Shown here piece by piece: positions 25,484 through 51,357 of a stretch of DNA of 51,357 nucleotides (its first letter is position 1; each line of letters starts with the position of its first letter). Source of the DNA: a virus; IMG/VR virus record IMGVR_UViG_3300017697_000021, positions 1-51,357 of that record. One strand, written 5' to 3'. A model generated the notes under the pieces. The model searched no databases, was not told the origin of the DNA, and saw only the letters and a program-made list of their open reading frames with translations. A program made the translations under genes and the position numbers.

Positions 25484-25490
25484 GTGCAGA

Positions 25491-25498: not shown

Positions 25499-25499
25499 G

Positions 25500-25507
25500 C
25501 GTAAATA
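25500..25507 (+). promoter_or_regulatory. Late promoter-like CGTAAATA (plus) for glycosyltransferase
   Basis: CGTAAATA, last A 5 nt before ATG 25513. An earlier in-frame ATG at 25507 overlaps this box, so 25513 is the better start. Confidence 0.55.
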
Positions 25508-25512
25508 TGACT

Positions 25513-28372: not shown

Positions 28373-28380
28373 AAAATTTA

Positions 28381-28836
28381 ATGCTTGAAAACTTAAAAAC
28401 TACCAATGTACATAAAGATCATATACCATACATGGTTATAAATGATGCCATAGATGTAAAAGATTATGACAAGCTCTACGAACAATGGAACAATCCAGAT
28501 CATATCTTGTGGGAAACATTTTTAAAAAAATTTAACGTTAAGGTTGTTTTACAAAGCAAGTTACAATCTATTGGCCCATTTGGCAAAAAAGAAAAAGAAT
28601 ATGTAGGGTATTGGTTTTTTAAGCAAAGAAATGATCATGGATCAGTGTTAGTGAAATTTGAAAATATTGAAATAGAATATAAATCAAACTGCTTGTTAAT
28701 AGTAAATTCAGAACAAACATTCTCTGTAATTAACAAGGGTAACGAAGGTTCAATAATGCCCGATATGTTGACTTGTATTGTTTATTTTGATTCAAATCAA
28801 CAAAAAAAGATCAAAGACATTTTCTCTAATCTTTAA
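28381..28836 (+). CDS. Unknown protein after sufB (151 aa)
   Basis: 151 aa. The N-terminal helix region (IPYMVINDAIDVKDYDKLYE) resembles the start of the 2OG oxygenase at 26187 ([20 protein letters not shown]), and the C-terminal half is beta-rich (SNCLLIVNSEQTFSVINKGN, MLTCIVYFDSNQQKK). I see no H-x-D ... H ligand set, so if it is an oxygenase relative it would lack the iron site. It converges with the minus-strand SGNH-like gene with a 4-nt overlap. Function unknown. Confidence 0.65.
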   Translation: MLENLKTTNVHKDHIPYMVINDAIDVKDYDKLYEQWNNPDHILWETFLKKFNVKVVLQSKLQSIGPFGKKEKEYVGYWFFKQRNDHGSVLVKFENIEIEYKSNCLLIVNSEQTFSVINKGNEGSIMPDMLTCIVYFDSNQQKKIKDIFSNL

Positions 28837-30406: not shown

Positions 30407-31046
30407 CTATAAACTCTTTCAGTTGTTCTGCCCATTGTCTGTGTCCCTCTGCTGATGGGTGGGGATCGTGTGGACTCACTACCAATTGCTTGTCCATAAT
30501 ATATTCAAGATGACTTACTTCCGGATTAAAAAATCTATCCATGTTAATTGCTTTTGCTATTACATCAAAGTCGCTTATGTCACTTTTAAAATCGTTAGGC
30601 AGTGCATTGTACATTACATACGGTATTCTTTTTCTTTCAAAATAATTCTGCAAGTCAAAAACATTATCAAGAAAATTCATTATTGCATTGTTTTCTATAT
30701 CCCACCCTGTGTTGGTTCTTATGAAACTGACATTATCCAAAGTTTTCCAAGTACGCCATGTTAGATCTGTTCCGGGTATTCTGCCTTTCTTCCATCCGTC
30801 ATTTGTTATGTAGTCGTTCCTATGGGCACTGGACCAACCAACAACTGCGAATGTATCTGCAGATCCGTTCTGTTCAAACCATATCTTTGTGGTAAAACTT
30901 ATACGGTCATTTCCGCGACCGCCCATGGCTAGATTGGTTAATTGCAGTCCATATGATTCTGCTAGTTCACGTGCCACAAAAGTTTCCACACCGTCTTTAG
31001 GTCTGGGTGTTAGAAAACTACAACCGTTAGAGAACATTTTGTACAT
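30381..31046 (-). CDS. SGNH/GDSL-like hydrolase B (paralogue of A)
   Basis: 221 aa. Same plan as the protein at 28833: KMFSNGCSFLTPRPKDG with the Ser nucleophile block, LAMGGRGNDRISFTTKIWF with the Gly/Asn block, YNALPNDFKSDI matching FNALHNGFDKPL, and HDPHPSAEGHRQWAEQLKE with D-x-x-H. ATG 31046 is chosen; ATG 31037 is nearly as good. The minus strand carries a TATAAAATA-like box 5 nt before it. It leads a three-gene minus-strand operon with overlapping ends. Divergent from the GT61-like gene with only 29 nt between them. Confidence 0.65.
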   Translation of the reverse strand: MYKMFSNGCSFLTPRPKDGVETFVARELAESYGLQLTNLAMGGRGNDRISFTTKIWFEQNGSADTFAVVGWSSAHRNDYITNDGWKKGRIPGTDLTWRTWKTLDNVSFIRTNTGWDIENNAIMNFLDNVFDLQNYFERKRIPYVMYNALPNDFKSDISDFDVIAKAINMDRFFNPEVSHLEYIMDKQLVVSPHDPHPSAEGHRQWAEQLKEFIDVNNLRTI

Positions 31047-31075
31047 ACATCTATTTTATAGTATAATTATTATAA

Positions 31076-32182
31076 ATGCAAACAGTAAAAAATATTAGTT
31101 CTATACAGTATTTCCTCAATAGATTTCCTACCTTGGATCACGGTTTTGATTATTCAGTGAATTACCACCCAGATGCAGAATCACAATTTACGTCATTGCC
31201 TACATTTGTTGCTGAATTTTTTAACTGTAAAGTTAATACCTGTCCATTGTTGGTCACCGAAGAGGGCCATATGATCACACAACACGTGTGGAATATTACA
31301 CATAAGAACAAACATAAACCAGACAAGACTCATGACATGTGGAAAACATGGAAAGATAACATTGATCTAGATCTGCCACCAGTCACTAAACATTTCAACG
31401 AGACATACACCTATGTTTGGTTGCCATTTGATACCGAAGCGGCAAGCAATCCATGGCACATATGGATAGATGTAATATCAAAATTCCGTTTGATAAACAA
31501 GTGCCCTCATGGAGAACTCTGGGCTTCCGACTTTTCTAAATATGTTTTTATACTACCAACACAAAGCAAATACTTTGATCTTATAGCCAAGGAGTTCTTT
31601 CCTAAACTAAAATACATGGTGATGCCAAAAGGCGAAACATGGCAATTTAAACATATCCTGGTGCCAAGCGCCAGCAACCACAGTGACGGTGTAATTACTC
31701 CGGGCCTGGCACCGTGGATCAGAGAACAAAAAAATAAATTAAACGTTAACTCAGAAAGAAAAAGAAAAATTTTTATTTCTAGAGATGACGCAAAAACAAG
31801 AAAACTTTTAAACGCCGAACAATTAATGTTAGCTCTCCAAGGGTGGGAAACTGTTACCTTAGAAAATCTTTCAATAAAAGAACAGGTTAAATGTTTTACA
31901 GAAGCATCACACATCATTGCACCACACGGCGCCGGTCTGGCAAACTTACTATGGTGTGGACCTGGCACTAAAGTTATTGAAATACAAGATCCAAAGATGA
32001 TAAGAAAAAAAGTATATCCTGTGCTGTCTCACCACCTTGGCCTGGAACACCAACTTTATCTTGCAAGGACCGTACCTATCAAGTTCACAGGGTCTAAACG
32101 TGACATGGGTGTAAAAAGACTCAACGACTTGATTAATTTTGAAGTCAACATTCCGGATCTCATAAGCTGTTTAGACAATTAA
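31076..32182 (+). CDS. Glycosyltransferase of GT61 (DUF563) type
   Basis: 368 aa. The C-terminal half carries the GT61 signature: KRKIFISRDDAKTRKLLNAE, LALQGWETVTLENLSIKEQV, IIAPHGAGLANLLWCGPGTK and VIEIQDPKMIRKK. Related enzymes transfer xylose, arabinose or GlcNAc. The N-terminal part contains WHIWIDVISKFRLINKCPHG and supplies the acceptor half. Start at ATG 31076 (MQTVKNISSIQYF). The nearest upstream box is TATAAT at 31062-31067 with only a weak -35, so the promoter is unclear. The following gene starts 2 nt after the stop. Confidence 0.85.
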   Translation: MQTVKNISSIQYFLNRFPTLDHGFDYSVNYHPDAESQFTSLPTFVAEFFNCKVNTCPLLVTEEGHMITQHVWNITHKNKHKPDKTHDMWKTWKDNIDLDLPPVTKHFNETYTYVWLPFDTEAASNPWHIWIDVISKFRLINKCPHGELWASDFSKYVFILPTQSKYFDLIAKEFFPKLKYMVMPKGETWQFKHILVPSASNHSDGVITPGLAPWIREQKNKLNVNSERKRKIFISRDDAKTRKLLNAEQLMLALQGWETVTLENLSIKEQVKCFTEASHIIAPHGAGLANLLWCGPGTKVIEIQDPKMIRKKVYPVLSHHLGLEHQLYLARTVPIKFTGSKRDMGVKRLNDLINFEVNIPDLISCLDN

Positions 32183-32183
32183 A

Positions 32184-32999
32184 ATGATAGCAGGCATACA
32201 CACTACCAAACCAAGAACACAAAGATACGTCGATGCATTTATGCATGGTACTCCTGGTCCTTATAAGATGTATCAATTTAGAGAACTTAAACAATTACCA
32301 GAAGAAAATTTAGCTATGTATGGCATACTAGCAGGATCTGGAGAAGTATATAAATGGTGCGAAAAAGAAAACAAGGATTTTTACTTCATGGATCACGGAT
32401 ATTTCACCAACGCCCACGACCATCCGCACTGGTTAAGGATAACAAAAAACAAGCACTGTCAAAATGTTTTGCAACATAGATCCACAGATAGGTATGAAAA
32501 ACATTTCAGACAGGACCTAAACCCATGGAACAAAACAGGTAAAAAAATTTTAGTCCTGCCGCCAACTAACGCAATAGCTAATCATTTTGGTGTGCAAGAT
32601 TGGTTAGAAAATACATTAAAAACTTTAGCAAATAACACAGATAGACAAATTGACATAAGAGAAAAACCTTATAATCCCACCGTGGAACTTGATCATGTTG
32701 GAGCAACTGTAAAGATTGATAAGCCAACTAACAATCAAGGACAAATCAAGTGGGAGGATTACTATGCTACAGTCTTATACAATAGTAACACAATGGTTGC
32801 CAGCCTAACCAATGGCGTACCTGTGTTTTGTGACAAAGAAAATAGTGCGGCATTACCAATATCCGAGACTGACTTTTCAAAAATTGAAGAGCCAAAATAC
32901 GGAGATAGAATTGCATTATTCTCAAATTTAGCTTATAATAATTTTACAATGGAAGAAATGCAAAATGGCTGTGCGTGGAACATACTAAATGAAAGTTGA
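32184..32999 (+). CDS. GT-B-like glycan protein, paralogue 2 of 4
   Basis: 271 aa. N-terminal segments: MIAGIHTTKPRTQRYVDAFM and FYFMDHGYFTNAHDHPHWLR. The C-terminal pattern shared by the family is clear: RQIDIREKPYNPTVELDHVG, YYATVLYNSNTMVASLTNGV, PVFCDKENSAALPISETDFS, KIEEPKYGDRIALFSNLAYN and EEMQNGCAWNIL. The sub-pattern A-x-V ... NGVPVF ... S(A/S)-x(P/V) ... IE-x-P ... R-x-x-W/LAY is found in all four. Overlaps the next paralogue by 11 nt and follows the GT61 gene by 1 nt. Confidence 0.6.
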   Translation: MIAGIHTTKPRTQRYVDAFMHGTPGPYKMYQFRELKQLPEENLAMYGILAGSGEVYKWCEKENKDFYFMDHGYFTNAHDHPHWLRITKNKHCQNVLQHRSTDRYEKHFRQDLNPWNKTGKKILVLPPTNAIANHFGVQDWLENTLKTLANNTDRQIDIREKPYNPTVELDHVGATVKIDKPTNNQGQIKWEDYYATVLYNSNTMVASLTNGVPVFCDKENSAALPISETDFSKIEEPKYGDRIALFSNLAYNNFTMEEMQNGCAWNILNES

Positions 33000-33972
33000 A
33001 ATTTTTAGAAGAACAGTAAAAGATCGTAAAAGGGGAAACAGCTATGAATTATTGTATCAAATGGCTGAAGGAGTCAAAGCGGCCGGAGATGAACCAATAA
33101 TTGTTAATGAACATATGACCGGGCAAACTAGAGAAGGTGAAATGGAGCCAACGGCACCTTTAGCTGTAATGTTTGGTTATGGTGGTACAAATCAAAGGCA
33201 CCATACTAAAGGAAGAAGATTGGAATTAGTTGAAAGAGCAAAGAAAAAAGGCACACACGTTATTACGTTTGATGGAGGAGTGTTGTCTAGTTTTGGCAAT
33301 GTGTCCACATCACCAGATCATCATTTTAGAGTTGCCCTCAATACTCCCATGAACGATGGTAATTTTTTATCAGATAATTCACCTCCGGATAGATGGGAAA
33401 TGATGAAAAAACTTTTTAATGTTAAACATGAAGAGTGGAGGAAATCAAATCCAGAAGATCCAATATTATTTGTGCTACAACCAAAAGATAACTGGAGTAT
33501 GAACGAACTTGATCCTATTGACTGGTTCAAAAGCGTCTATGAAAAATTAAGACCACTTACCAAAAGAAAGTTTATTGTAAGACCACACCCAAATAATGTT
33601 TCTAACATTGAACAAAGACGTAATGAATTTCCTAGTGATGTTGATGTACAGATTGGACAAAAACATTTCCTTGGAGATGAAAAGAAGCATTATAGATTTC
33701 ACTTTCAGACTGCAATAACCAATTGCCATGCTGTTGTTACTCACAATTCTACTGCCTCAACTGACTCCTGCGTCAGGGGTATTCCTACCTTTTGCACTAG
33801 CGATCTTGCAATCTGTTGGCCTGTAGCAAATACTGATTTAACTAAAATTGAATCACCAGAGTATCCCGACAGGACACAATGGTTACATGATCTAGGATAT
33901 AAAATGTGGAGCATAAAAGAAATTAAAGATGGCACAGTTTATAAACGATTTAAAGCAAAGTTAGAATTATAA
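32989..33972 (+). CDS. GT-B-like glycan protein, paralogue 3 of 4
   Basis: 327 aa, the longest of the four. N-terminal Rossmann-like start (RGNSYELLYQMAEGVKAAGD, APLAVMFGYGGTNQRHHTKG). Shared C-terminal features: KFIVRPHPNNVSNIEQRRNE (the R-x-HP donor motif), AVVTHNSTASTDSCVRGIPT, ICWPVANTDLTKIESPEYPD and RTQWLHDLGYKMWSIKEIKD. The RPHP motif is as in paralogue 4 (RPHPRNP), supporting a capsule-type GT-B domain. Just 1 nt separates its stop from the asnB start. Confidence 0.6.
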   Translation: MKVEIFRRTVKDRKRGNSYELLYQMAEGVKAAGDEPIIVNEHMTGQTREGEMEPTAPLAVMFGYGGTNQRHHTKGRRLELVERAKKKGTHVITFDGGVLSSFGNVSTSPDHHFRVALNTPMNDGNFLSDNSPPDRWEMMKKLFNVKHEEWRKSNPEDPILFVLQPKDNWSMNELDPIDWFKSVYEKLRPLTKRKFIVRPHPNNVSNIEQRRNEFPSDVDVQIGQKHFLGDEKKHYRFHFQTAITNCHAVVTHNSTASTDSCVRGIPTFCTSDLAICWPVANTDLTKIESPEYPDRTQWLHDLGYKMWSIKEIKDGTVYKRFKAKLEL

Positions 33973-33973
33973 T

Positions 33974-35713
33974 ATGTGCGGAATATACGGCATCACTTCT
34001 GTAGATGTTAATTTTATAAAAAAATATATCGAAGTCTGTAAACACAGAGGACCTGATGGGTCTGATGTTTGGCACGATGATAGAGTCACCCTTGGACACA
34101 ACTTATTGAGTATAATGGGAGATGCCAACAAAGCTAGGCAACCATGGACTACTCCAAAAGGAAATGTCCTTGTTTACAATGGAGAAATTTTTAATTACTA
34201 CGAACTACTTGAAAAATATAAAAACGTATTTCAAAACAAAACCGATTGTGATACAGAATTGCTGGCATGGGGTTTAGATTGTTTTGGTATACAGTTTGTT
34301 GAACAATTAGATTCCATGCACGGATTTGCCTATTATGATAAAGAACAACAAAAATTAATATTAAGCAGAGACCATGCTGGGATCAAACCTGTTTATTATG
34401 CAGAGGTAAAGGAAGGGCTTGTGTTTGGTTCTGAAATAAAAGGCATGCTGGACAAGGTGCCGGGCTCACGTAAATTAGATAAAGTTGCACACAGTATTTT
34501 TTGTAGGTTGAGTGCCAACCCTTTGAGAAACACATTTTTTAATAACATAAAAAAATTATTACCGGGTGAAACACTAGTTTACAATATTAGAAATAAAAAA
34601 ATATTACAGAATTCGATGGATTGGGTGTTGCCTGTGTGCAACAAAGATTATAATACACAGGAACTAAGACAGCAAGTACATGATGCTGTCAAAAGATGCA
34701 GTATCGGAAATAAAAAAATTGGACTATTTTTGAGCGGTGGAATGGATTCAAGTATGATAGGATACGAACTAAAAAATTTACACGGCACAGTTAATTCATT
34801 TACAAACGGGTGGGATCCGGATCCTTACACTCCGGAAGAAAGATATAATGAAGATTTCCAGTGTGCAGAAAAAATGGCAAAGGAGTTAGGATATAATCAC
34901 ACTAAAATTATAATTACACCTGAAATTTACAAAGAATACTGGGATCAAAGTATTGCTAGTTTTGAACAAATAATAAAAAGTCCTAGTATGCCAGCTAACA
35001 TTTACACAAACAAAATAATGAAAGATAACAATATCAAAGTTAGTATGGCTGGTGATCTTGGAGACGAACTGCTGTGTGGTTATCCTCGCCACAAACTAGT
35101 CAGCAATGAGCGTAAAAGTATGAAAAGTTGGAGACATGTTTGTGATGCTATGATAAATTTTAGGAAATTTGATACAGGAGTAAACAAAGATATCCTTTCA
35201 CACACGGACACACTTGCCCTACTAGAAAAAACCTACACTGATAAACTTTTCAATCCAGAGGATCCTCTTGGCAGTTTTAATGTTTTAGAAATATTAACAA
35301 ATTGTCCAGAAGAATTCTTACTTAGAAATGATAAATTTGGAATGAATTACAGCATAGAAGGACGTTATCCCTTGGCATCAAAAACTTTTATGAAATATTG
35401 TATGAGCATCCATTCTGATTATAAACTTTATGGAGTAAGACACAAAAGAACCGCGGGTAAAAAATTTATGTTAAAGCATATGAGTAAAACTGCATACAAG
35501 GACTATTTGCCTGAATACATTATTAATAAAGGCAAAACAGGATGGACTGTGCCAATGGGTTATTGGATGAATAATAAAAATTTTCAGGAGTTCTACAAAC
35601 AGAAAACCGGCAAAGATATGACCTATAAAATAAGTCAAAAGACTGGTAAATGGGCGGCATCAGACATGATATGGGCTTCATGGTTTAAAATGTTCAACGT
35701 TGAAAACTATTAA
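33974..35713 (+). CDS. asnB: Glutamine-hydrolysing asparagine synthetase (AsnB-like)
   Basis: 579 aa, typical two-domain length. Class II glutaminase domain: catalytic Cys2 (MCGIYGIT), HRGPDGS (24-30), VYNGEIFNY and a GFAYYD-type segment. The synthetase domain has the pyrophosphatase P-loop SGGMDSS (254-260). Later it has MAGDLGDELLCGYPRHKL, matching the G(D/E)GxDE(L/x)xGGY-type motif. AsnB makes asparagine from aspartate using glutamine and ATP; AsnB-like enzymes inside glycan clusters instead amidate sugar acids or peptides. Its place between GT-B paralogues and another glycosyltransferase favours the second view, but a general nitrogen-metabolism role is possible. Confidence 0.93.
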   Translation: MCGIYGITSVDVNFIKKYIEVCKHRGPDGSDVWHDDRVTLGHNLLSIMGDANKARQPWTTPKGNVLVYNGEIFNYYELLEKYKNVFQNKTDCDTELLAWGLDCFGIQFVEQLDSMHGFAYYDKEQQKLILSRDHAGIKPVYYAEVKEGLVFGSEIKGMLDKVPGSRKLDKVAHSIFCRLSANPLRNTFFNNIKKLLPGETLVYNIRNKKILQNSMDWVLPVCNKDYNTQELRQQVHDAVKRCSIGNKKIGLFLSGGMDSSMIGYELKNLHGTVNSFTNGWDPDPYTPEERYNEDFQCAEKMAKELGYNHTKIIITPEIYKEYWDQSIASFEQIIKSPSMPANIYTNKIMKDNNIKVSMAGDLGDELLCGYPRHKLVSNERKSMKSWRHVCDAMINFRKFDTGVNKDILSHTDTLALLEKTYTDKLFNPEDPLGSFNVLEILTNCPEEFLLRNDKFGMNYSIEGRYPLASKTFMKYCMSIHSDYKLYGVRHKRTAGKKFMLKHMSKTAYKDYLPEYIINKGKTGWTVPMGYWMNNKNFQEFYKQKTGKDMTYKISQKTGKWAASDMIWASWFKMFNVENY

Positions 35714-35716
35714 ATA
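35709..35716 (+). promoter_or_regulatory. Late promoter-like ATTAAATA for 35722 gene
   Basis: ATTAAATA overlapping the asnB stop, last A 5 nt before ATG 35722, the same short spacing seen at several late genes. Confidence 0.5.
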
Positions 35717-35721
35717 AAATT

Positions 35722-36648
35722 ATGAAAAGTGAAAAAACTTTAGCAGTTGTTACAACATTTCCGCCATCTAAGTGGAACGTATATGCAAAAAGAATGGTGG
35801 AGAGTCACATACAGCACTGGCCTAGCGATGTAAAATTGCATGTCTACTATGAAAAAGAAAAACCTAACTTAGAACACAGTAAAATTATTTACATTGATAT
35901 AGAAAAAGAAAATCCGGAACTAGTTGCTTTTAAAAATAAACACAAAAACGATCCAGTGGCCAACGGAGAGACTGTTGAAATACCCGGAGGTGTGAGGAGG
36001 TTGCCTGATGCTGGAGACAAAGACAAAGGCAAAGGTTCTTTTTTATGGGACGCTGTGAGATTTGCTCACAAAAGTTTTGCTGTTTCTCATGCTATTAAAA
36101 ACATAGACACAGATTATGTGCTTTGGTTGGATGCCGACACTTATACATTTAGGACAATTACAAAAGAATTTGTATTTTCATTGTTGCCAGAAAATAAGCT
36201 GGTAAACTATTTAGGCAGAGTTACCTATCCAGAATGTGGGTGGGTCTGCTACAATAGAAGACATCCAAAAATAACTGAATTTATTAATACGTGGATTAGA
36301 CTGTACACCACAGACGCAATTTTCAAAGAGGTCGAATGGCACGACAGTTATCTTTTTTGGCAGATACTGAACAGAGTGGCACCAACAGAAGGAGTAGATA
36401 TCGGCAAAGGTGCCGGGGTCGAAGGATTGCATGTGTTCATTAACAGCATACTGGGTGACTACATTGATCACATGAAAGGCAAAAGAAAAATTAAAGGCAA
36501 AAGTTCAAAATCAGATCTAAGAATAAAAAGAAAAGAAGATTATTGGAAAAATGTTGAAAGCTATGATCCATTTGTTGGAATAAAGATTGACTCCAAACAG
36601 GCAGAAGACATTGTGTCTAAAGTTGCAAAAGGAACTCAAGGCAACTAA
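35722..36648 (+). CDS. Glycosyltransferase, GT-A type (DxD)
   Basis: 308 aa. N-terminal strand TLAVVTTFPPSKWNVYAKRM, then SFLWDAVRFAHKSFAVSHAI, the metal-binding DxD in YVLWLDADTYTFRTITKEF, and EWHDSYLFWQILNRVAP as the acceptor/catalytic region. These are features of nucleotide-sugar GT-A enzymes common in marine phages. The C-terminal lysine-rich tail (MKGKRKIKGKSSKSDLRIKR) may contact an acidic partner or membrane. It overlaps the next GT-B-like paralogue by one base. Sugar and acceptor unknown. Confidence 0.75.
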   Translation: MKSEKTLAVVTTFPPSKWNVYAKRMVESHIQHWPSDVKLHVYYEKEKPNLEHSKIIYIDIEKENPELVAFKNKHKNDPVANGETVEIPGGVRRLPDAGDKDKGKGSFLWDAVRFAHKSFAVSHAIKNIDTDYVLWLDADTYTFRTITKEFVFSLLPENKLVNYLGRVTYPECGWVCYNRRHPKITEFINTWIRLYTTDAIFKEVEWHDSYLFWQILNRVAPTEGVDIGKGAGVEGLHVFINSILGDYIDHMKGKRKIKGKSSKSDLRIKRKEDYWKNVESYDPFVGIKIDSKQAEDIVSKVAKGTQGN

Positions 36649-37514
36649 TGAAAATAAGTGTATATCCAGCATATGGAAGTTTAAACTCTAAGCCTGTGTT
36701 TGATGCTTTTATACAAAATTTAAAAGATAAAAAGGAAAATTTTCAAATCAACAAACACGATCATGACACTGATGTTGCTGTGATATGGAGCGTTTTATGG
36801 CAAGGAAGAATGCAACACAATTTAAAAATTTGGAAAGAATTCAAAGCACTGAAAAAACCTGTAATAGTTTTAGAAGTGGGCGGCATCAAAAGAAACGTAA
36901 CATGGAAAATGGGAATCAATGGAATAAACCGTGATGCTGATTTTGCAGTTTCGCCGCACGTCGATAGTCGTTGGCAAAAATTTAAAATAGATCTAAAGCC
37001 ATGGAAACGAAGTGGAAAAAATATAATTATATGTGGCCAACACGACAGTAGTGAGCAATGGCGAAGTCTTCCTAAAATGAATAACTGGTTACTAGAACAA
37101 GTCACAGCAATTAAAAAAGTTAGCGATAAAAAAATTATAATTAGGCCGCATCCGAGAAATCCTATTACAATAAAAATGGCAGGAGTGGAAACACAAGTGC
37201 CAAAAAAAGATCCAGCTTCGTATGATGATACGGATTTTGTGAAACACCTAAACGATGCATGGGCAGTTGTTAATCACAGTTCTAATCCTGCAATGCAATC
37301 AGTGTTCAATGGAACACCTGTGTTTGTTTCGGAATCAAGTTTATCATATGATGTGGGAAATCAAGATTATTCAACTATTGAAAAACCTAACACACCTGAT
37401 AGATTAGAGTGGGCACAAAAATTAGCGTATACAGAATGGTGGATCGACGAAATAAAAGAAGGAACGCCATGGGAAAGAATTAGGAATCGATTGGAAGAGA
37501 AGTATTTAAAATGA
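36648..37514 (+). CDS. GT-B-like glycan protein, paralogue 4 of 4
   Basis: 288 aa. Starts MKISVYPAYGSLNSKPVFDA. It has the shared pattern KKIIIRPHPRNPITIKMAGV (RPHPR), AWAVVNHSSNPAMQSVFNGT, PVFVSESSLSYDVGNQDYST, IEKPNTPDRLEWAQKLAYT and EWWIDEIKEGTPWERI. It is the copy in which the family pattern is easiest to see and can serve as reference. Coupled to both neighbours: one-base overlap upstream and 4-nt overlap downstream. Confidence 0.65.
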   Translation: MKISVYPAYGSLNSKPVFDAFIQNLKDKKENFQINKHDHDTDVAVIWSVLWQGRMQHNLKIWKEFKALKKPVIVLEVGGIKRNVTWKMGINGINRDADFAVSPHVDSRWQKFKIDLKPWKRSGKNIIICGQHDSSEQWRSLPKMNNWLLEQVTAIKKVSDKKIIIRPHPRNPITIKMAGVETQVPKKDPASYDDTDFVKHLNDAWAVVNHSSNPAMQSVFNGTPVFVSESSLSYDVGNQDYSTIEKPNTPDRLEWAQKLAYTEWWIDEIKEGTPWERIRNRLEEKYLK

Positions 37515-38275
37515 GCATAACATTAAGTGGTAGGCAAGAAAATATAATAGAGCCAATTGTATGGGAGCAATATAATGGCGAAACAATCAACACCCATCTC
37601 ACAATACGTGACGGAAAAAAGATACAGGAGACTGCGTTTTACGAGGACAGGGTAAAGGCAGTGCCACGTGGTAACGCATACTGCATAGGCAACGGGCCTT
37701 CACGCAAACAGTTTGATCTTAACAGTTTAAAAGCATCTGGCCAGACATATGGGTGTAATGCACTGTACAGAGATTTCATACCTGATTATATTTTTTCTGT
37801 AGACTCCCCAATGACTTTAGAAATGGTTAAAGAGAACGTTTACGAAAAATGTGTTCACTATGCGCCTTCACTGGAAGTCAATCGTTATCCAAAAGGAGGA
37901 CCGTCTCATCTACATTTGATACCAAACAATCCACATTGGATATGTGGTAGCTCCGCTTTCTGGACAGCAGGAGTGCATGGGCATAGAAATATATATCTGC
38001 TAGGTTATGATTTTAGAGAGTTTGGCCAAGACGAGTTCAACAACATCTACCAAGATACTGAGAACTATGGACCAAGGCACAGTGACACAGTGTTTGACGG
38101 GTGGCTGAAACAGTTCAGAGATATGCTTAAGATGAGACCTGATGTAAATTACATCATGGTACATGACAACGCACCGGAGTACATGCACAATGTACAGACA
38201 GGCACCGACCTAGGTAACAGCAAGATAATCAGTTATGATGAGTTTAACGATGTAGTGTCAAACCGTAAGTCTTAA
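37511..38275 (+). CDS. DUF115/MptE-like Rossmann protein, glycan-related
   Basis: 254 aa. After a short N-terminus the block NAYCIGNGPSRKQFDLNSLK, GQTYGCNALYRDFIPDYIFS and a DSPMTLEMVK segment matches the Rossmann start of DUF115/MptE-like proteins; the GNGPS turn is also used by sialyltransferase-type GT42 enzymes. IYLLGYDFREFGQDEFNNIY is a conserved phage block. Bacterial DUF115 proteins decorate flagella or surface polymers, which fits the island. A sugar-nucleotide transferase is more likely than a pterin enzyme here. Its last 32 nt overlap the minus-strand SprT gene. Confidence 0.65.
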   Translation: MSITLSGRQENIIEPIVWEQYNGETINTHLTIRDGKKIQETAFYEDRVKAVPRGNAYCIGNGPSRKQFDLNSLKASGQTYGCNALYRDFIPDYIFSVDSPMTLEMVKENVYEKCVHYAPSLEVNRYPKGGPSHLHLIPNNPHWICGSSAFWTAGVHGHRNIYLLGYDFREFGQDEFNNIYQDTENYGPRHSDTVFDGWLKQFRDMLKMRPDVNYIMVHDNAPEYMHNVQTGTDLGNSKIISYDEFNDVVSNRKS

Positions 38276-43422: not shown

Positions 43423-43639
43423 ATTTGCACTAGAAGTAGACGACCATTTAAACATAGAACCTGGAGACAGTGTGGTGGTTATAAAAGCTGATGGAACAGT
43501 AGGCAAAGTGATATTGCCAGAGATGAGTAGAGAAACACAACAAACCAGAGGTTATAAAAAAATGTTAAAAGTTTTAGATATGCTAAAGCCCGGATCAAAA
43601 TTAAAATTAGAAACTTATAATAAAGGAAAATTACACTAA
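43415..43639 (+). CDS. Small protein with TTG start, unknown (74 aa)
   Basis: 74 aa initiated at TTG 43415. The start is supported by a very strong Shine-Dalgarno AAAGGAGG at 43401-43408, 6 nt before it, and by overlap with the upstream stop. Product MSKFALEVDDHLNIEPGDSV, then VVIKADGTVGKVILPEM, RETQQTRGYKKMLKVLDMLK and PGSKLKLETYNKGKLH. It contains an SH3/beta-barrel-like GDSVVVIKADGTVGKV turn. The stop overlaps the mini-DnaE start by one base. No family recognised. Confidence 0.7.
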   Translation: MSKFALEVDDHLNIEPGDSVVVIKADGTVGKVILPEMSRETQQTRGYKKMLKVLDMLKPGSKLKLETYNKGKLH

Positions 43640-44238
43640 TGCCTGATGTTGATATAGATTTTTTTGACAGAGACAAAGCACTGAAATTATTCAAACATAC
43701 TCCTGCATCCATGATCAAAGACGACAACATTGAGAAACATAAAACAGGAGTTTACTTTCATAACATACCTGTTGATCCTGTTTCTGGACACTCAACTTTA
43801 GATTATAAAGTTGCAGAACAAAGAGGATATTTTAAAATTGATTGCTTGAACGTTAGCATTTACAAGGCAGTCGAATCAGAAGAACACCTTGTAAAACTAA
43901 TGATAGAAGAACCGAATTGGGAAATGTTGAAGGATAAAAAAATTGTAGATGAATTATTCCATTTAAATGGACACTATAATATTGTATCCAAGCTAGAGCC
44001 AAAAAATATCGAGCAACTTGCCGCAGTACTGGCTATGATACGACCTGCAAAAAGATATCTAACGTACAAAAACTGGAACGAAATATTAAAAGAAGTTTGG
44101 ACTAAACCCACGGACAACAGTTACTTTTTTAAAAAATCGCATGCGGTAGCTTATGCTCAGGCTATTGTGGTGCAGATGAATTTGATCCAAAATGATAAAT
44201 ATACTTTTAGTGTACAACCAGAAACGCAAACTCACTAA
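43639..44238 (+). CDS. Miniature DnaE-like (C-family polymerase) palm/fingers protein
   Basis: 199 aa. It opens with MPDVDIDFFDRD, the PDxDxDF catalytic motif of bacterial DNA polymerase III alpha. It then jumps to KHKTGVYFHNIPVDPVSGHS (matching KHAGGVVIAP), EQRGYFKIDCLNVSIY (third catalytic Asp, as in GLVKFDFLGL), LFHLNGHYNIVSKLEP and LAAVLAMIRPAKRYL (as ALVALFRPGP), and FFKKSHAVAYAQAIVVQMNL (as FNKSHSAAYALVSYQ). All three carboxylates are present, but most of the ~1160-residue polymerase is missing: the PHP domain, thumb, palm insert and C-terminal domains. Such a protein is not likely to polymerise alone; it may bind DNA or a replisome protein, or be a remnant. A related gene starts at 50688. 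Confidence 0.7.
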   Translation: MPDVDIDFFDRDKALKLFKHTPASMIKDDNIEKHKTGVYFHNIPVDPVSGHSTLDYKVAEQRGYFKIDCLNVSIYKAVESEEHLVKLMIEEPNWEMLKDKKIVDELFHLNGHYNIVSKLEPKNIEQLAAVLAMIRPAKRYLTYKNWNEILKEVWTKPTDNSYFFKKSHAVAYAQAIVVQMNLIQNDKYTFSVQPETQTH

Positions 44239-44880: not shown

Positions 44881-45687
44881 ATGCAAACTGTCTCAAGGTA
44901 TTTACTAACAAACTTGGTAATCGCCTACATAAATGGTTATCACGGAAGGAACTCAAAAGTGTACAATAGACGCTTAAATATTTTTAGAGGAGTGTCAAAT
45001 CCTGTCACTTTTAGTTTTAAAAATGAGGATCAGAAGGCCCAGGATATCACAACTAGGTCGTTTGAGTTTGCATTAATAGATACTGATAGCAAAAAAGCGG
45101 TTCTAACACGTACATTATCCATACTAGATGATGGATCTACATTCACAACAAAGGGCACAGCATCGGTTACTTTGACTGATGGGGACCTGCTGTCTTTACA
45201 TGCTAAATTTTATGACTTCTCTGTGAGAGAAGTGCTTACAGACGGATCAAGTGTCTCTTATCAGGTTACCTATGCTGATACCGGTTATAATTCGGCAGGC
45301 ACGGTGGAACTGATAGATGGCGGCTTTCCATCTTTTGTAGCCAGCGAAGAAGTTAGTTCTTTCAGTAGCAACACCAGTAATAATCCATACCCTCTAAGAT
45401 ATGTTTCTAATGGAACTATATCAGGACATCCTGGACAAAACAACAACGATGCTTTACACACCGTGGCTGTATACACATCAGATTTTTCAGGCACTTTAAA
45501 AATACTTGCCACTATGTCCACAACTCCGGCACCTGCAGATTTCTTTACAGTTACTACAATCACTGACTTACCAAGCTCTGGAGTGAAAAACTACAACTTC
45601 AATGGCGTATACCAATTTGTTAAATTCAGTTGGGACAATGCTACTGGTAATACCGGGACGATTGACAAAATCCTATATAGACAGTAA
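44881..45687 (+). CDS. Virion-like beta-structured protein, unknown (268 aa)
   Basis: 268 aa. After a basic N-terminal region (RYLLTNLVIAYINGYHGRNS, VYNRRLNIFRGVSNPVTFSF), the protein is beta-rich: FEFALIDTDSKKAVLTRTLS, DDGSTFTTKGTASVTLTDGD, VREVLTDGSSVSYQVTYAD and FVKFSWDNATGNTGTIDKIL. This resembles Ig-like or baseplate upper-protein modules of marine phages. The late promoter and composition indicate a virion component, perhaps a baseplate or fibre element, isolated inside the replication region. It ends 9 nt before the primase gene. Confidence 0.65.
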   Translation: MQTVSRYLLTNLVIAYINGYHGRNSKVYNRRLNIFRGVSNPVTFSFKNEDQKAQDITTRSFEFALIDTDSKKAVLTRTLSILDDGSTFTTKGTASVTLTDGDLLSLHAKFYDFSVREVLTDGSSVSYQVTYADTGYNSAGTVELIDGGFPSFVASEEVSSFSSNTSNNPYPLRYVSNGTISGHPGQNNNDALHTVAVYTSDFSGTLKILATMSTTPAPADFFTVTTITDLPSSGVKNYNFNGVYQFVKFSWDNATGNTGTIDKILYRQ

Positions 45688-45696: not shown

Positions 45697-46710
45697 ATGA
45701 ATCTTATTCAATCTACTATTCTGACATCACTGCCTGCGGGTAGAAAGAAAACTCCAAGTGGGTGGATAAGCTTCAATGCACCCTGCTGTGTACACAACGG
45801 AGAGACAGCAGACAAGAAGAAACGTGGTGGCATAATGACTTCTACTGATGGTACTGTATCTTTTCACTGTTTCAACTGTGGATTCAAAGCAAACTATGTG
45901 GCGGGACGTAAGCTCAATCTTAAGATGAGGACATTTATGAGCTATATCGGAATGGCAGAAGACACTATAAGGAAGATGGCCATAGAGGCCATGCGTCAAG
46001 AAGAGGGTGACATAAAATATGAAAAGAAGAAATTTATCACATTCAAGAAAAAAGAATTACCCAAGGGTGCAAAAAAGTTAGAGTTTTGGTTGGAGAAGAT
46101 GTTGGAAAATTTATTATCTGCAGACGAAACGTCCGCTGTTGATAATTTACTGAAGTACTTGGAAGGAAGAGGAATTGGTGCCGACTGGTACGACTTCATG
46201 TATTCTACAGACAAGCATTGGGACGTAAACAAAAGATTACTCATACCGTTTTACTGGCGAGGAGACATAGTAGGATTTTCAGGAAGGATGTTTGAACAGT
46301 CTGACAAGGTGAAATACTACACGGACGTACAGCCTGGTTATGTGTTCAACATGGATGCTCAGGATTGGTCAAGGAAGTTTGTACTTGTGACAGAAGGACC
46401 GTTTGATGCAATTACCATTTCTGGCGTGAGCATACTGGGATCAGAGATAAATGATACACAGCGGGAGTTGATAGATGGACTGGGCAGACAGGTTATTGTA
46501 GTACCGGACAGAGATGCCCCAGGAGAGAAACTGATCAATCAAGCAAAAGAATTTGGTTGGAGTGTGGCATTTCCTGAATGGGAAAAAGGAGTAAACGATG
46601 TTGCCGATGCTGTAATGAAATACGGAAGGCTGTTTACTATACAATCAATATTAAAAACAACAGAGTCTAGCAAACTTAAAATAGATTTAAAGACAAAGAT
46701 AGATGGATAA
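45697..46710 (+). CDS. 61: DNA primase gp61
   Basis: 337 aa (T4 gp61 is 342 aa). Zinc-ribbon residues are C30/C31 and H33 in NAPCCVHNGE and C58/C61 in FHCFNCGFKA. The TOPRIM catalytic part has the acidic E233 in VLVTEGPFDAITIS and the DRD (271-273) of QVIVVPDRDAPGEKL. This primase makes pentaribonucleotide primers as a complex with helicase gp41. It ends with a one-base overlap with the radical SAM gene, so it is in the same operon as that pair. Complete and clean. Confidence 0.93.
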   Translation: MNLIQSTILTSLPAGRKKTPSGWISFNAPCCVHNGETADKKKRGGIMTSTDGTVSFHCFNCGFKANYVAGRKLNLKMRTFMSYIGMAEDTIRKMAIEAMRQEEGDIKYEKKKFITFKKKELPKGAKKLEFWLEKMLENLLSADETSAVDNLLKYLEGRGIGADWYDFMYSTDKHWDVNKRLLIPFYWRGDIVGFSGRMFEQSDKVKYYTDVQPGYVFNMDAQDWSRKFVLVTEGPFDAITISGVSILGSEINDTQRELIDGLGRQVIVVPDRDAPGEKLINQAKEFGWSVAFPEWEKGVNDVADAVMKYGRLFTIQSILKTTESSKLKIDLKTKIDG

Positions 46711-47855
46711 TGGATTCCAAACAAAAATATCAACTTTTTAGACAAAGTAAGCATTTCTGTACAGCTCCATGGAACCTATTATATGTAGGAGTGGACGGAA
46801 CAATTCAAACTTGTTCAAGCGGAAAAGCCATGGGACACCTACAGGAGCATGATATAACTGAAATATTACCTAATAAGAAATTTCAATCTTTGAGAAAAGA
46901 AATACTTGAGGACAAGATAACAGATAACTGTAGAAATTGTTTAATGAATGAGAACACTTCCAGTGCAGGCAAATACACAGGACTACGAAATCATTACAAC
47001 GGGCTTGGTGTACACAGCAGTGCTGATTACACAGACACGAAGCAGTTCAAACTCTCTGCTTTAGATTTACACTGGAGTAGTTTGTGCGATTTAAAATGTG
47101 TAACCTGTTGGGCAGTTCAAAGCAGTAGTATTGCACGTGAAGAAAACAAACCGGTGAATCACACACCACCAGCATTGGCAGATCGCATTATCGAATACGT
47201 GGTAGCCAATCAAAACGAATTAAAAGAAATATACATGAGCGGTGGCGAGCCCACATTGATCAAATATAACCTTAAACTATTAAAGCAGATCGAAAAAAGA
47301 CCCGACTTAATTATTAGAGTGAATACAAACATGCAGTGGAAACAAGACAATCAAGTACTACAAGAAATATTAAAATTTCCAACTGTGTTGTTCACTTGTA
47401 GCATAGACGGTATAGGAGATAAGTTTGATTATATTAGGCGAGGAGCAAACTGGAACAAGACCTTAGCAAACATAAAATTTTTAAAAGCACAGTCAAACGT
47501 TGACCTAAGAGCCAACACTGTGTTCTCTGTGCTGACTGCACAAGAACTACCTGAGATAATTGACTACTTCATGGAAGAAATTGGAAGTATAGACCATACC
47601 ATTAATCAACTATCAATGGGACAAGAGCGACTGAGATGCAGGAACTTACCGGATGAGATAAAAAATAAAGTTCGCGAACAGTTGAATAAAACTTTTTTAA
47701 AATATAAGACCAATCTAAACATAGCAGGAAACATAAAAAATTGTCTTATTGAACTCGACAACAACCATGATAGTGTTGAATACAAGAAGTACTTTGATAA
47801 CATTGATATTTTACAAGGAACTGACTGGCGAAAACTTTATCCGGAGTTGACATGA
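46710..47855 (+). CDS. Radical SAM enzyme with N-terminal Twitch/SPASM-like Cys region
   Basis: 381 aa. The SAM-cluster motif C126-x3-C130-x2-C133 lies in SSLCDLKCVTCW; GGEP (178-181) follows in YMSGGEPTLIKY. Before the core are four more Cys (C17 in FCTAPW, C35, C74, C77 in CRNC), consistent with an auxiliary Fe-S cluster like Twitch/SPASM proteins, although the usual position is C-terminal. Such enzymes modify peptides, RNA or cofactors by 5'-deoxyadenosyl radical chemistry. Flanked by primase (one-base overlap) and an SDR-like gene (4-nt overlap). Related genes are known in marine phages; substrate unknown. Confidence 0.85.
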   Translation: MDSKQKYQLFRQSKHFCTAPWNLLYVGVDGTIQTCSSGKAMGHLQEHDITEILPNKKFQSLRKEILEDKITDNCRNCLMNENTSSAGKYTGLRNHYNGLGVHSSADYTDTKQFKLSALDLHWSSLCDLKCVTCWAVQSSSIAREENKPVNHTPPALADRIIEYVVANQNELKEIYMSGGEPTLIKYNLKLLKQIEKRPDLIIRVNTNMQWKQDNQVLQEILKFPTVLFTCSIDGIGDKFDYIRRGANWNKTLANIKFLKAQSNVDLRANTVFSVLTAQELPEIIDYFMEEIGSIDHTINQLSMGQERLRCRNLPDEIKNKVREQLNKTFLKYKTNLNIAGNIKNCLIELDNNHDSVEYKKYFDNIDILQGTDWRKLYPELT

Positions 47856-48457
47856 AACAGGCTTTATTAATAGGGTGTGGAAATCAAAGAGGCGAACGTA
47901 TTGTGAATGGCTGTATGGGAGCCGGTTATTCAGTGACCAACATAGGCTCAGGTGCTTCTGCAATACAGACAGTGAACAACATTAAAATTGAATGGAAAGA
48001 TTTAGATATCATAAAACTGCACAAGATACTTGTAAAAATTAAACATAAAGTAGACTTTATATTTTTTAACCAAAATGCTTCCAGTTTGTCGAATATAGAC
48101 TTTACACAACCAAAAAAAACACTTGACACATGGGGGCTAGTAAAAAGTTGGGGTCACAGTTATTGGTTGAGTTGTCAATTACCGTATTTCTTGATCAAGA
48201 CTCTGGAAACAAATCTGCATCATGAAACTATAATTGGATGGATGCTTTCCAGTTACATAGACAAAAATAAAGAAGGCGTGGAAACACATCCTGATTACAG
48301 CGGTAACAAATATACAAATTACATGCTAATGAAGAATTTTAATACAAAATATCAATGCTTTGGTATAAATCCCGAATTCGAAACTACTGACAAGATCCAG
48401 CCTTTGATCAAAGAAATATGTTCGGGCAATAAAAAGTGTGATGGTAAACTTTTTTAA
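47852..48457 (+). CDS. SDR-like Rossmann oxidoreductase
   Basis: 201 aa. The N-terminal strand-turn MKQALLIGCGNQRGERIVNG is a dinucleotide-binding start with altered glycines, followed by GAGYSVTNIGSGASA. Y149-x3-K153 in HPDYSGNKYTNYM fits the SDR catalytic Tyr-Lys pair, and IIGWMLSSYID provides a serine (133/134). The Asn of FFNQNASSLSNID is like the SDR N-A-x block. It is coupled to the radical SAM gene by a 4-nt overlap, so the two probably act on the same substrate. Shorter than the common 250 aa. Confidence 0.7.
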   Translation: MKQALLIGCGNQRGERIVNGCMGAGYSVTNIGSGASAIQTVNNIKIEWKDLDIIKLHKILVKIKHKVDFIFFNQNASSLSNIDFTQPKKTLDTWGLVKSWGHSYWLSCQLPYFLIKTLETNLHHETIIGWMLSSYIDKNKEGVETHPDYSGNKYTNYMLMKNFNTKYQCFGINPEFETTDKIQPLIKEICSGNKKCDGKLF

Positions 48458-48498: not shown

Positions 48499-49983
48499 AT
48501 GGCTGATTATAATAATTTTAACAATAAACCAGAACACCAAGTTAAGAACTACTCGTTCGATGTACAGAAATTGTATATGGAAATGCTGTTAGCAGATGCA
48601 ACATCGTTTGCTCGAGCACAAAATATATTTGATCCTAAATCATTTGATAGAAAATTACAACCTATTGCAAAATTTATTAAAGAGTATGTAGAAGAATATA
48701 AAGTATTACCCGAGGTAGAACAAATTAATGCGTCTCACGATATTAAATTAAAGCAAGCCAAAGATTTAGATCCAAGTCACTTTGCGTGGCTACTAGACGA
48801 GTTTGAAATATTTTCTCGACACAAAGCACTTGAACACGCAATACTTGAATCGGCAGACCTGTTAGAAAAAGGAGATTATGGTCCTGTTGAAGACAAGATA
48901 AAAGATGCAGTAAACGTTGGGCTGACTCGTGACATGGGTACTGACTACTTTGAAGATCCTAAAGGAAGACTTGAGGCACTAAAGGCAAACAACGGACAGG
49001 TTAGCACAGGCTGGGCTAACTTAGACAAGAAACTGTTTGGTGGCTTCAATCGTGGAGAACTAAACATCTTTGCAGGTGGGTCGGGTGCAGGTAAGAGTTT
49101 GTTCTTGCAGAATCTTGCAGTGAATTGGGCCACTACTGGACTGAACGTTTGTTACATATCTTTTGAATTGAGTGAAGCTCTAACTGCCATGAGATTGGAT
49201 GCCATGATGACAAACATTCCAACAAAGAAAGTGTTTCCAGAGATAGACAATGTTGAAATGAAAGTTAAGATGCTAAAGAAGAAATCAGGAACACTACAGA
49301 TCAAATACTTGCCTAGTGGTAGCAACGTGCTAGATGTTAGAACATATTTGAAAGAACTAGAACTTAAAAACAAGAAAAAAATAGACTGTATTCTAATTGA
49401 CTACTTAGATCTCATGATGCCAAAAAGCAAAAGGATATCGCCAGCAGATTTATTCATTAAGGACAAATACGTATCAGAAGAATTAAGAAACTTGTGTGTC
49501 GAGAAACAATGTGTGTTGGCAACTGCATCACAGTTGAACAGAGCTAGTGTTGAAGAAATAGAGTTTGATCACTCTCATATATCAGGCGGCCTATCTAAGA
49601 TACAGACAGCTGACAACGTGATTGGTATATTCACAAGTAGAGCAATGAAAGAACGTGGTAGATATCAGATACAGTTCATGAAGACTAGAAGTTCAAGCGG
49701 GGTGGGCCAGAAAGTTGATTTAGAATTTGATGTAGATAGTTTAAGAATTAGAGACTTAGCAGATGATCCAGAATACAAACAGTTTGACAAACAAAGAAGC
49801 ACAATATATGATTCACTAAAACAAACTTCAAAAGTATCAGCATCAGATGGCACACCAAAAAATGCAAGACCAGATGTCCCGGATCCTCGTAAAGGAGACA
49901 CTATCGGCAAAGTCAAAGCCACTGTTGAAGGCGGTAAACTGAGACAACTCCTAAACGAACTGCACTCAGATGAAGAACAGTAA
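48499..49983 (+). CDS. 41: Replicative helicase gp41 (DnaB-type)
   Basis: 494 aa (T4 gp41 is 475 aa). RecA-like helicase core: GGFNRGELNIFAGGSGAGKS with Walker A GGSGAGKS (193-200), then VCYISFELSEALTAMRLDAM, Walker B DCILIDYLDLMMPK, TASQLNRASVEEIEFDHSHI and arginine-finger region QIQFMKTRSSSGVGQ. The N-terminal ~150 residues form the primase-interacting helical domain. gp41 unwinds the fork on the lagging strand and activates gp61. TAGGAG Shine-Dalgarno at 48487-48492. Ends overlapping endonuclease III by 14 nt. Confidence 0.95.
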   Translation: MADYNNFNNKPEHQVKNYSFDVQKLYMEMLLADATSFARAQNIFDPKSFDRKLQPIAKFIKEYVEEYKVLPEVEQINASHDIKLKQAKDLDPSHFAWLLDEFEIFSRHKALEHAILESADLLEKGDYGPVEDKIKDAVNVGLTRDMGTDYFEDPKGRLEALKANNGQVSTGWANLDKKLFGGFNRGELNIFAGGSGAGKSLFLQNLAVNWATTGLNVCYISFELSEALTAMRLDAMMTNIPTKKVFPEIDNVEMKVKMLKKKSGTLQIKYLPSGSNVLDVRTYLKELELKNKKKIDCILIDYLDLMMPKSKRISPADLFIKDKYVSEELRNLCVEKQCVLATASQLNRASVEEIEFDHSHISGGLSKIQTADNVIGIFTSRAMKERGRYQIQFMKTRSSSGVGQKVDLEFDVDSLRIRDLADDPEYKQFDKQRSTIYDSLKQTSKVSASDGTPKNARPDVPDPRKGDTIGKVKATVEGGKLRQLLNELHSDEEQ

Positions 49984-50644
49984 TGACATTGATTACATAT
50001 ATGAGAAGTTAAGTGCTCTGTATCCAAACTACGCCAACAAAAAACCTAAAGCAAAAATTTATTCAAAAGCATACACCAGTCTTATAGGAGTTATGCTGTC
50101 TGCCCAATCGCAAGACAAACGAACAGCGATTGCTTGTAGACAACTGTTTGCGTTGGCAAACACGCCTGAGGATATGTTGAAACTAACACAGGAAGAGATC
50201 ATAGAAGCGATCAGGCCTGCAGGATTGTTTAATGCAAAATCAAAAAATATCCTGTCCACTAGCAAGATGTTGATAGAAGAATTTAAAGGACGTGTTCCAA
50301 AAACTCAAAAAGAATTAATGACCTTGCCTGGTGTTGGAAGGAAAAGTTCAGACATCGTCATGAGATTTGTGTTTGGTGAACCACACATAGCAGTAGACAC
50401 ACACGTTTTTAGAATGTTGTGGAGATTGGGTTGGGCCGACAGTCTAGATGAAGGCAAGGCGTCAATCACAGTTAACAACACCACTCCTATCAAATACAAA
50501 TACGGAGCCCACATGTGGTTAATAACACATGCCAAGTACGTATGTAAATCCAGAACACCGGTGTGCGATCAATGTGTGATAGACGCCGCATGCGACCACA
50601 GAGACATCACAGTTCCGAAGAACAAATTGCGCCAAAAAGTATAA
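49970..50644 (+). CDS. nth: Endonuclease III-like DNA glycosylase/AP lyase
   Basis: 224 aa, near 211 aa of E. coli Nth. HhH-GPD core TLPGVGRKSSDIVMRFVFGE with catalytic Lys125 (LPGVGRK) and Asp143 in HIAVDTHVFRML. The [4Fe-4S] loop is perfect: C192-x6-C199-x2-C202-x5-C208. N-terminal blocks LIGVMLSAQSQDKRTAIACR and AGLFNAKSKNILSTSKML also match. It removes oxidised pyrimidines and nicks abasic sites. T4 itself uses DenV (T4 PDG), which belongs to another fold, so this is host-type repair. Start ATG 49970 overlaps gp41 by 14 nt. Confidence 0.93.
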   Translation: MKNSNDIDYIYEKLSALYPNYANKKPKAKIYSKAYTSLIGVMLSAQSQDKRTAIACRQLFALANTPEDMLKLTQEEIIEAIRPAGLFNAKSKNILSTSKMLIEEFKGRVPKTQKELMTLPGVGRKSSDIVMRFVFGEPHIAVDTHVFRMLWRLGWADSLDEGKASITVNNTTPIKYKYGAHMWLITHAKYVCKSRTPVCDQCVIDAACDHRDITVPKNKLRQKV

Positions 50645-50687: not shown

Positions 50688-51357
50688 ATGCGAGAGGCGA
50701 TAACAGGCAACATAGGCATGAAAAATAAAGAACTAAACGACATAACAAGGCTATACGATAGATTTATTAGGCACTGTCCAGGCACAGAAGAATACACGCA
50801 CAGACTAGCCGAGGAAACTCAAATCATCCTTCAACTACGTTTCGTAGACTACTTCATACAAATATGTGACATCATCGCAATGACACGAGACATACCGCAC
50901 ATGACACGTGGTAGTGCTGGTTCATCATTGGTCTGTTACCTGCTGGGCATAACAGATGTGGACCCAGTGGAGTGGGACATACCCGTGGCAAGATTCCTCA
51001 ATCCCAATAGGGACGACCTACCTGATGTTGATATTGATTTCCCTCATCATAAACAGGCAGAAGTCATGCAGAGGATATTCAAGAAGTGGCCAGGACGCAG
51101 TGCTAGGATATCTAATTACGTGCTCTATAAAGATAAATCAGCAAGGCGTGAAGCGGCCAAACGCTTGGGTGTCAAGGGTAACCTACCCCGCAGGTTCACA
51201 TACGATTCACTAGGCATCGACGTTAAGGAGGCCAAAAGGATAGAGAACAAATTAAAAGGCAAGAAGAGATGCATATCAAAACACTGCGGAGGAATAATAA
51301 TGTTTCAAAGACAATTACCAAAAAGCCTGTTCACGGCGGAAAATCAAATACTACTAG
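50688..51357 (+). CDS. DnaE-like DNA polymerase (C-family) gene, 5' part, runs off window
   Basis: Open from ATG 50688 to the end of the window (223 codons visible). An alternative ATG is at 50718. Opening helices (YTHRLAEETQIILQLRFVDY) lead to the palm: HMTRGSAGSSLVCYLLGITD, VDPVEWDIPVARFLNPNRDD and the catalytic LPDVDIDFPHHKQAE. A RISNYVLYKDKSARREAAKR block (like QIITFGTMAAKAVIRDVG) and SKHCGGIIMFQRQLP follow. These match DNA polymerase III alpha from the palm to the KHAGG region, including two catalytic Asp. It lacks the PHP domain of DnaE, beginning near the palm. It is related to the miniature protein at 43639, which has its own copy of the PDVDIDF motif, so the two are paralogues rather than halves of one gene. 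Confidence 0.85.
   Translation, partial: MREAITGNIGMKNKELNDITRLYDRFIRHCPGTEEYTHRLAEETQIILQLRFVDYFIQICDIIAMTRDIPHMTRGSAGSSLVCYLLGITDVDPVEWDIPVARFLNPNRDDLPDVDIDFPHHKQAEVMQRIFKKWPGRSARISNYVLYKDKSARREAAKRLGVKGNLPRRFTYDSLGIDVKEAKRIENKLKGKKRCISKHCGGIIMFQRQLPKSLFTAENQILL

Follow-up and report, generated by a model that had tools for sequence, protein, structure and literature searches.

A fixed pair of radical SAM and dehydrogenase/reductase genes as exchangeable cargo between the primase and helicase genes of uncultured phages

Introduction

Why would a phage carry two genes for redox enzymes between its primase and its replicative helicase? The question is raised by a 51,357-base record of a bacterial virus, uncultured and probably marine (the window hereafter, meaning the whole stretch of DNA analysed), in which a radical SAM enzyme and a short-chain dehydrogenase/reductase (SDR) are encoded at exactly this position. 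An earlier note, made from the DNA letters, had proposed that the two enzymes perform a two-step modification of a peptide, nucleotide or cofactor linked to DNA replication. Here, we ask what the two proteins are, how constant their association is, and whether their place among the replication genes reflects their function; compared loci and records are given as L followed by a number.

Results

Layout of the locus

The gene order and spacing described in the earlier note proved exact to the base (Table 1). The primase stop codon TAA ends on the first base of the radical SAM start codon (position 46710, a 1-base overlap), the radical SAM stop and the SDR start share an ATGA (4-nt overlap, 47852 to 47855), and 41 nt separate the SDR end from the helicase ATG. 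GGAG lies upstream of the SDR start and AGGAG upstream of the helicase start.

The wider window holds further genes of interest. The endonuclease III-like gene that directly follows the helicase is also present in L001, and the last gene, for a bacterial-type DNA polymerase III alpha subunit, runs off the window end. Elsewhere there is a sugar and tailoring cluster, as well as a gene for SufB/SufD-type Fe-S cluster assembly, whose product could aid the loading of Fe-S enzymes such as the radical SAM protein.

Table 1. Features of the window discussed in the text.
Feature	Positions	Strand	Remarks
Sugar/tailoring cluster	25225-38275		2OG-Fe(II) oxygenase, two DUF6071 (SGNH-like), GT61 glycosyltransferase, asparagine-synthase/GATase, weak GT2
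2OG oxygenase	26133-26939		In sugar/tailoring cluster
SufB/SufD-type Fe-S cluster assembly gene	26939-28372		SUFBD_core E 7.7e-76
GT61 glycosyltransferase	31076-32182		In sugar/tailoring cluster
199-aa ORF	43639-44238		PDVDIDF- and KSHAVAYA-like motifs; no Pfam match
Virion-like protein, before primase	44881-45687		PHROG 14467 virion structural protein, E 8e-8
DnaG-type phage primase (gp61-like)	45697-46710	+	PHROG 47 DNA primase, E 1.4e-38; 5' flank of cargo junction
Left insertion edge, primase stop coupled to cargo start	46702-46713	+	Junction sequences compared
Radical SAM enzyme, N-terminal twitch/SPASM domain, 381 aa	46710-47855	+	NF033640, SPASM, Radical_SAM
SDR, 201 aa	47852-48457	+	Predicted fold, Y149xxxK153
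DnaB-type replicative helicase (gp41-like)	48499-49983	+	PHROG 19, E 5.4e-71; 3' flank of cargo junction
Endonuclease III-like gene	49970-50644		TIGR01083 nth, E 6.8e-53, below cut-off
Bacterial DNA polymerase III alpha (DnaE-type)	50688-51356		PF07733, E 4e-42; runs off window end

A radical SAM enzyme with an N-terminal twitch domain

The radical SAM protein had been noted for extra cysteines ahead of its core, in the reverse of the usual SPASM/Twitch order. Both observations hold: the Pfam SPASM match (residues 17-77, E 2.9e-9) precedes the Radical_SAM match (residues 125-264, E 2.8e-13), and C17, C35, C74 and C77, the putative auxiliary-cluster cysteines, are invariant across 23 homologues, as are the core motif C126xxxC130xxC133 and GGEP at 178-181. 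The reversed order is real but already catalogued, as NCBIfam NF033640 (N_Twi_rSAM, twitch domain-containing radical SAM protein). With 243.1 bits against a curated cut-off of 170 bits and a near full-length alignment (residues 13-380 on profile positions 1-394 of 398), the protein is, by sequence, a member according to the family's own defining test. Members of NF033640 share the N-terminal twitch order with the window protein; the family is unspecific in function and reaches up to 14 copies in one phage record. The sub-group that forms the pair stands out from the family at large by a length of about 381 aa, a start that mostly reads MDPKxKYxLF, and an SDR gene that always lies downstream.

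Several single phage records contain 10-14 N-twitch radical SAM genes (L005, L012, L013 and L052; L077 and L086), often head to tail, with 11 of them in 17 kb in L077; genes for SDRs, 2OG-oxygenases, desaturases and methyltransferases lie near such arrays.

In the predicted structure (pLDDT 92), the best core matches (Z 11-14) include peptide, sugar and nucleotide enzymes at level scores. The closest is BlsE (Z 13.7), with SkfB (Z 13.2), DesII (Z 12.9) and anSME also among the best. SkfB, anSME and SuiB, SPASM or twitch enzymes that modify peptides or proteins, resemble the window protein in the fold of the core (Z 12-13); however, their auxiliary domains are C-terminal and their substrates are a peptide or a sulfatase, neither of which was found at the window pair. 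BlsE and DesII, which act on a nucleoside sugar and a sugar nucleotide, have auxiliary domains unlike that of the window protein, and their scores are level with those of the peptide enzymes. Finally, residues 15-78 resemble the C-terminal auxiliary-cluster domain of BtrN, the radical SAM dehydrogenase of 2-deoxystreptamine biosynthesis, although the similarity is weak (phmmer E 0.0019, auxiliary domain only) and the domain order of BtrN is opposite.

Viperin-like structures also occur among the core matches, which might suggest an anti-host or anti-defence enzyme that makes a chain-terminating or signalling nucleotide. We regard this as highly improbable: the NCBIfam viperin model scores 31.3 bits against a cut-off of 180, no kinase partner adjoins the pair, and to our knowledge viperin has no counterpart of the four-cysteine N-terminal domain.

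A divergent short-chain dehydrogenase/reductase

The SDR has no Pfam or NCBIfam family match, and its assignment comes from structure and motif. Its model (pLDDT 92) adopts a classical SDR fold, with Z 21.6 to 4e4y (186 of 201 residues, rmsd 2.2), and the catalytic Y149xxxK153 has both residues invariant in 25 homologues; the two lines of evidence agree and bear out the earlier note's designation of the protein as SDR-like. Position 133, after beta-5, is a serine in the window and serine or threonine in most homologues. Classical SDRs (4e4y, FabG, gluconate 5-dehydrogenase, aldohexose dehydrogenase) are alike over the whole chain (Z about 20-21.6) and carry the serine and YxxxK in the same expected elements, but the window protein is shorter (201 aa) and lacks their sequence-family match. 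Furthermore, its cofactor loop reads G8xG10xxxG14 (GxGxxxG), with the middle glycine of the classical TGxxxGxG spacing replaced, and because of this missing motif we leave it out of the classical subfamily. Judging from the fold, it probably binds an NAD(P) cofactor.

SDR relatives at about 30% identity lie beside groups of radical SAM genes (L032, L034, L037) or within radical SAM arrays (L077, L086), while distant relatives at L036, L040-L042 and L208 have no adjacent radical SAM gene. No relative was confirmed in bacteria in a scan of 84,980 species genomes, which relies on short conserved peptides and may let distant relatives escape.

The two genes form a unit

The close group of SDRs, searched for with profiles built from eight loci, comprised 18 distinct sequences, and a radical SAM gene lies directly upstream of every one (in L028 and L030 the contig ends within it). 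Once true ATG starts are used, the overlap is 4 nt across these loci. The recurrence of the same overlapping arrangement in 18 distinct loci is far beyond chance: the two genes are inherited together and coupled in translation. Both are under purifying selection, as indicated by dN/dS of about 0.13 and 0.11 between the window and L001.

L138 is the most telling case: at the same primase-helicase junction, it has a radical SAM gene whose SPASM domain is C-terminal, followed by a gene for a homologue of the SDR (E 1e-28; profile E 3.7e-30). This homologue keeps YxxxK, aligns at 30% identity over 215 residues and matches NF006532 at E 1.8e-5, below the cut-off. Since L138 pairs the SDR with a different radical SAM architecture, the SDR appears to go with radical SAM chemistry rather than with one gene by accident.

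A search for conserved neighbours identified only the radical SAM and SDR families in every context of the pair that was compared, and no third gene. No conserved small ORF or precursor peptide accompanies the pair across these contexts, and the overlapping genes leave no room between them, which argues against a locally encoded peptide substrate. This bears on the possibility that the pair modifies a peptide or protein, either in the manner of a phage RiPP or on a virion protein: the twitch/SPASM domain would hold the peptide, the radical SAM enzyme would cross-link, epimerise or oxidise a side chain, and the SDR would complete the modification. Most SPASM/twitch enzymes with an established function modify peptides or proteins, SkfB, anSME and SuiB are among the structural neighbours, and a virion-like protein gene precedes the primase. 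Against it, the twitch domain sits at the opposite end from that of known peptide maturases, scores against the equivalog maturase models all fall far short of their cut-offs, and the compared contexts offer neither a conserved short ORF nor space for one in the operon. We thus consider a peptide or protein substrate unlikely.

In the collections searched, the fixed pair is restricted to phages. Neither protein was found in isolated phages (tblastn, 50,697 phage records), and more distant SDR homologues were likewise without a match; a distant array-type radical SAM query returned only Vibrio phages K566 and K567 and one marine single-cell record, and an SDR of the window family was absent from the stretch of K566 that was read.

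The pair moves between genomic contexts

The pair lies between primase and helicase in two groups of phages, G1 (the window and L001) and G2 (L015, L031, L045-L051), the proteins of the latter being only about 45% identical to those of the window. In related phages it is found away from both genes (L002, L005, L008-L014, L028, L030, L052, L055, L057), in surroundings that fall into two kinds: in L002, L008-L014 and L055 it adjoins a glycosyltransferase and a GalE-type epimerase, whereas in L005, L028, L030 and L057 it lies in the vicinity of NAD synthase and 7-deazaguanine genes rather than of sugar genes.

The pair recently moved between unrelated contexts. The two genes of L001 are 92.4% and 95.2% identical in nucleotides to those of L002, where they sit between the glycosyltransferase and the epimerase in unrelated surroundings. 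Additionally, in both protein trees the window/L001 pair nests among pairs from other sites, apart from the six other primase-helicase pairs. Between the window and L001, at the same site, the SDR gene was exchanged recently: its dS is 0.15, as against 0.80 (primase), 0.98 (radical SAM gene) and 2.2 (helicase).

These results divide the proposal of a replication-linked two-step modification. The coupling of the two genes fits two steps; the link to replication is not supported, as the pair occurs elsewhere in related phages with no association to replication genes and the junction is empty or holds other cargo in close relatives (below). A role in modifying a replisome nucleotide, cofactor or protein, in favour of which one can cite the position of the pair in both G1 and G2, is therefore largely refuted, and we give it very little credence.

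The primase-helicase junction is a cargo hotspot

A primase search gave at least 80 loci, and the junction counts below describe a sample among the matches listed. Within that sample, 32 of 75 readable junctions had no ORF between primase and helicase, and 29 of 69 had none of at least 100 aa once near-copies were removed. In empty junctions ATGGCTGA serves as primase stop and helicase start at once, and cargo is inserted exactly there. The nearest set, again among the matches listed, comprised 34 resolved loci whose primases are 65-82% identical to that of the window: 21 junctions were empty, one had a 55-aa ORF and 12 carried enzyme-sized cargo. Ten of these 12 included a radical SAM gene, namely eight with a single C-terminal-SPASM gene, L148 with an N-twitch gene (169.7 bits, at the cut-off) and L138 with its C-SPASM and SDR genes; the other two cargo genes, both without a Pfam match, were read as 2OG-oxygenase-like and SGNH-like.

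Junctions of more distant relatives among the matches listed contained Nol-like carbamoyltransferases (23 of 57 cargo proteins), ClpP and 2OG-Fe(II) oxygenases. In many more distant phages (L159-L199), the carbamoyltransferases are short Nol/NodU-like proteins of about 330 aa that correspond to the N-terminal part only.

Co-inheritance of C-SPASM cargo with the primase was strong in the whole set among the matches listed (Mantel r 0.73, p 0.001) but was not seen in the near clade (Mantel r 0.19, p 0.26); descent and exchange may thus both contribute. By helicase, the isolated phages closest to the window are jumbo phages, for example Pseudomonas phage PA5oct (55% identity), which has the same local order of minus-strand gene, structural protein, primase and helicase with a primase-helicase gap of 1 nt; the junction is empty in PA5oct, Phosso and XaC1. 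The statement in the earlier note that T4 has no such genes between 41 and 61 is right for radical SAM and SDR genes, yet five small genes (dmd, 61.4, sp, 61.2, 61.1) do lie there. T4 thus also has accessory genes between the same replication genes, but in another gene order, with 41 upstream, and these are unrelated small genes, none of them metabolic enzymes.

The junction is, in short, a cargo hotspot, and the pair is cargo rather than a part of the DNA-copying machinery.

Discussion

What does the cargo do? Our best reading is that of a mobile two-step tailoring cassette, carried in a cargo hotspot and directed at a sugar-type substrate. Its parts differ in strength: we are confident of the cassette and the hotspot, we hold the sugar-type substrate tentatively, as a plausible choice that falls short of probable, and the reading as a whole seems to us evenly poised. 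In this scheme, the radical SAM enzyme would take a hydrogen atom from a hydroxyl- (or amino-) bearing carbon of the substrate, while the auxiliary [4Fe-4S] cluster in its N-terminal domain would hold that substrate or accept the electron, in the manner of BtrN or DesII. The SDR would then reduce (or would first oxidise) that carbon or one beside it, using NAD(P)(H); its pairing with two radical SAM architectures probably means that it either follows the radical step and works on its product or precedes it and prepares its substrate. The joint outcome, on a glycan or sugar nucleotide used for the phage surface, the phage DNA or the host surface, would be a change of configuration or the removal of a group, whether by epimerisation, dehydrogenation-reduction or deoxygenation. 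The site beside the replication genes would reflect the hotspot and the timing of expression, not a role in replication.

Several observations favour a sugar-type substrate: the glycosyltransferase and GalE neighbours of the pair in L002, L008-L014 and L055; the carbamoyltransferases and oxygenases that occupy the same junction in relatives, given that Nol-like carbamoyltransferases act on sugars; the sugar gene cluster of the window itself (GT61 and 2OG oxygenase, 25-38 kb); and the presence of BlsE and DesII among the matches to the radical SAM core. On the other hand, a tally of 100 near and 100 far Pfam neighbours of N-twitch radical SAM genes in general gave no excess of glycosyltransferases; the neighbours found there were 2OG-type hydroxylases, desaturases, methyltransferases and PP-loop enzymes. 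It follows that the argument for a sugar draws on the neighbours of the pair sub-group and on the cargo of the hotspot, not on the N-twitch family at large. Also weighing against our reading are the vicinity of the pair to NAD synthase and 7-deazaguanine genes in L005, L028, L030 and L057, the level core scores of peptide, sugar and nucleotide enzymes, the departure of the SDR from TGxxxGxG, and the distant SDR relatives that have no radical SAM gene beside them.

A related but more specific interpretation is that of a split epimerase or deoxygenase, in which a phage-specific radical SAM and SDR couple would perform a radical oxidation followed by re-reduction on a sugar or nucleotide, again as an exchangeable cassette. 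The junction repeatedly houses radical SAM enzymes of several architectures. We treat this interpretation as a minority possibility.

Another alternative places the substrate in the phage DNA, where the pair would decorate 7-deazaguanine or another hypermodified base. This would also suit a location among replication genes, and it draws on the occurrence of GTP cyclohydrolase I (FolE) together with a conserved 480-aa protein in eight of 17 pair-bearing records (L002, L005, L008, L009, L012, L013, L055, L057) and on QueE and QueD genes at most 10 kb from the pair in several records. However, the 194-kb record L052 has the pair but lacks both FolE and the 480-aa gene, the completeness of the records not being established; neither gene is in any record with the primase-helicase arrangement, all of these being fragments of 10-69 kb; and the deazaguanine genes track one phage backbone, not the pair. 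Base modification is accordingly, in our view, an improbable function of the pair. The 480-aa protein is of interest in its own right. It carries a GDSGGYQ motif (L002:1555-2997, and the L005 and L057 records), has no Pfam or PHROG match, and is found in every tested pair-bearing record that also has GTP cyclohydrolase I; from the motif, we take it to be a possible divergent phage DNA transglycosylase.

In the literature searched, which left subscription journals largely outside, we found no description of the fixed pair, of its restriction to phages or of the junction as a cargo site. To that extent, the radical SAM/SDR pair appears new, as does the role of the junction as a slot whose cargo is exchanged and often includes radical SAM genes, unlike the N-terminal twitch architecture.

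Uncultured phages encode many N-twitch radical SAM enzymes, with 10-14 of them in several single records. A sub-group whose redox partner is constant provides a far better entry point to their substrates than the family as a whole, since an SDR limits the chemistry to hydroxyl/carbonyl redox. Furthermore, the primase-helicase junction offers a simple handle for finding more cargo of this kind: one only has to read between two conserved genes.
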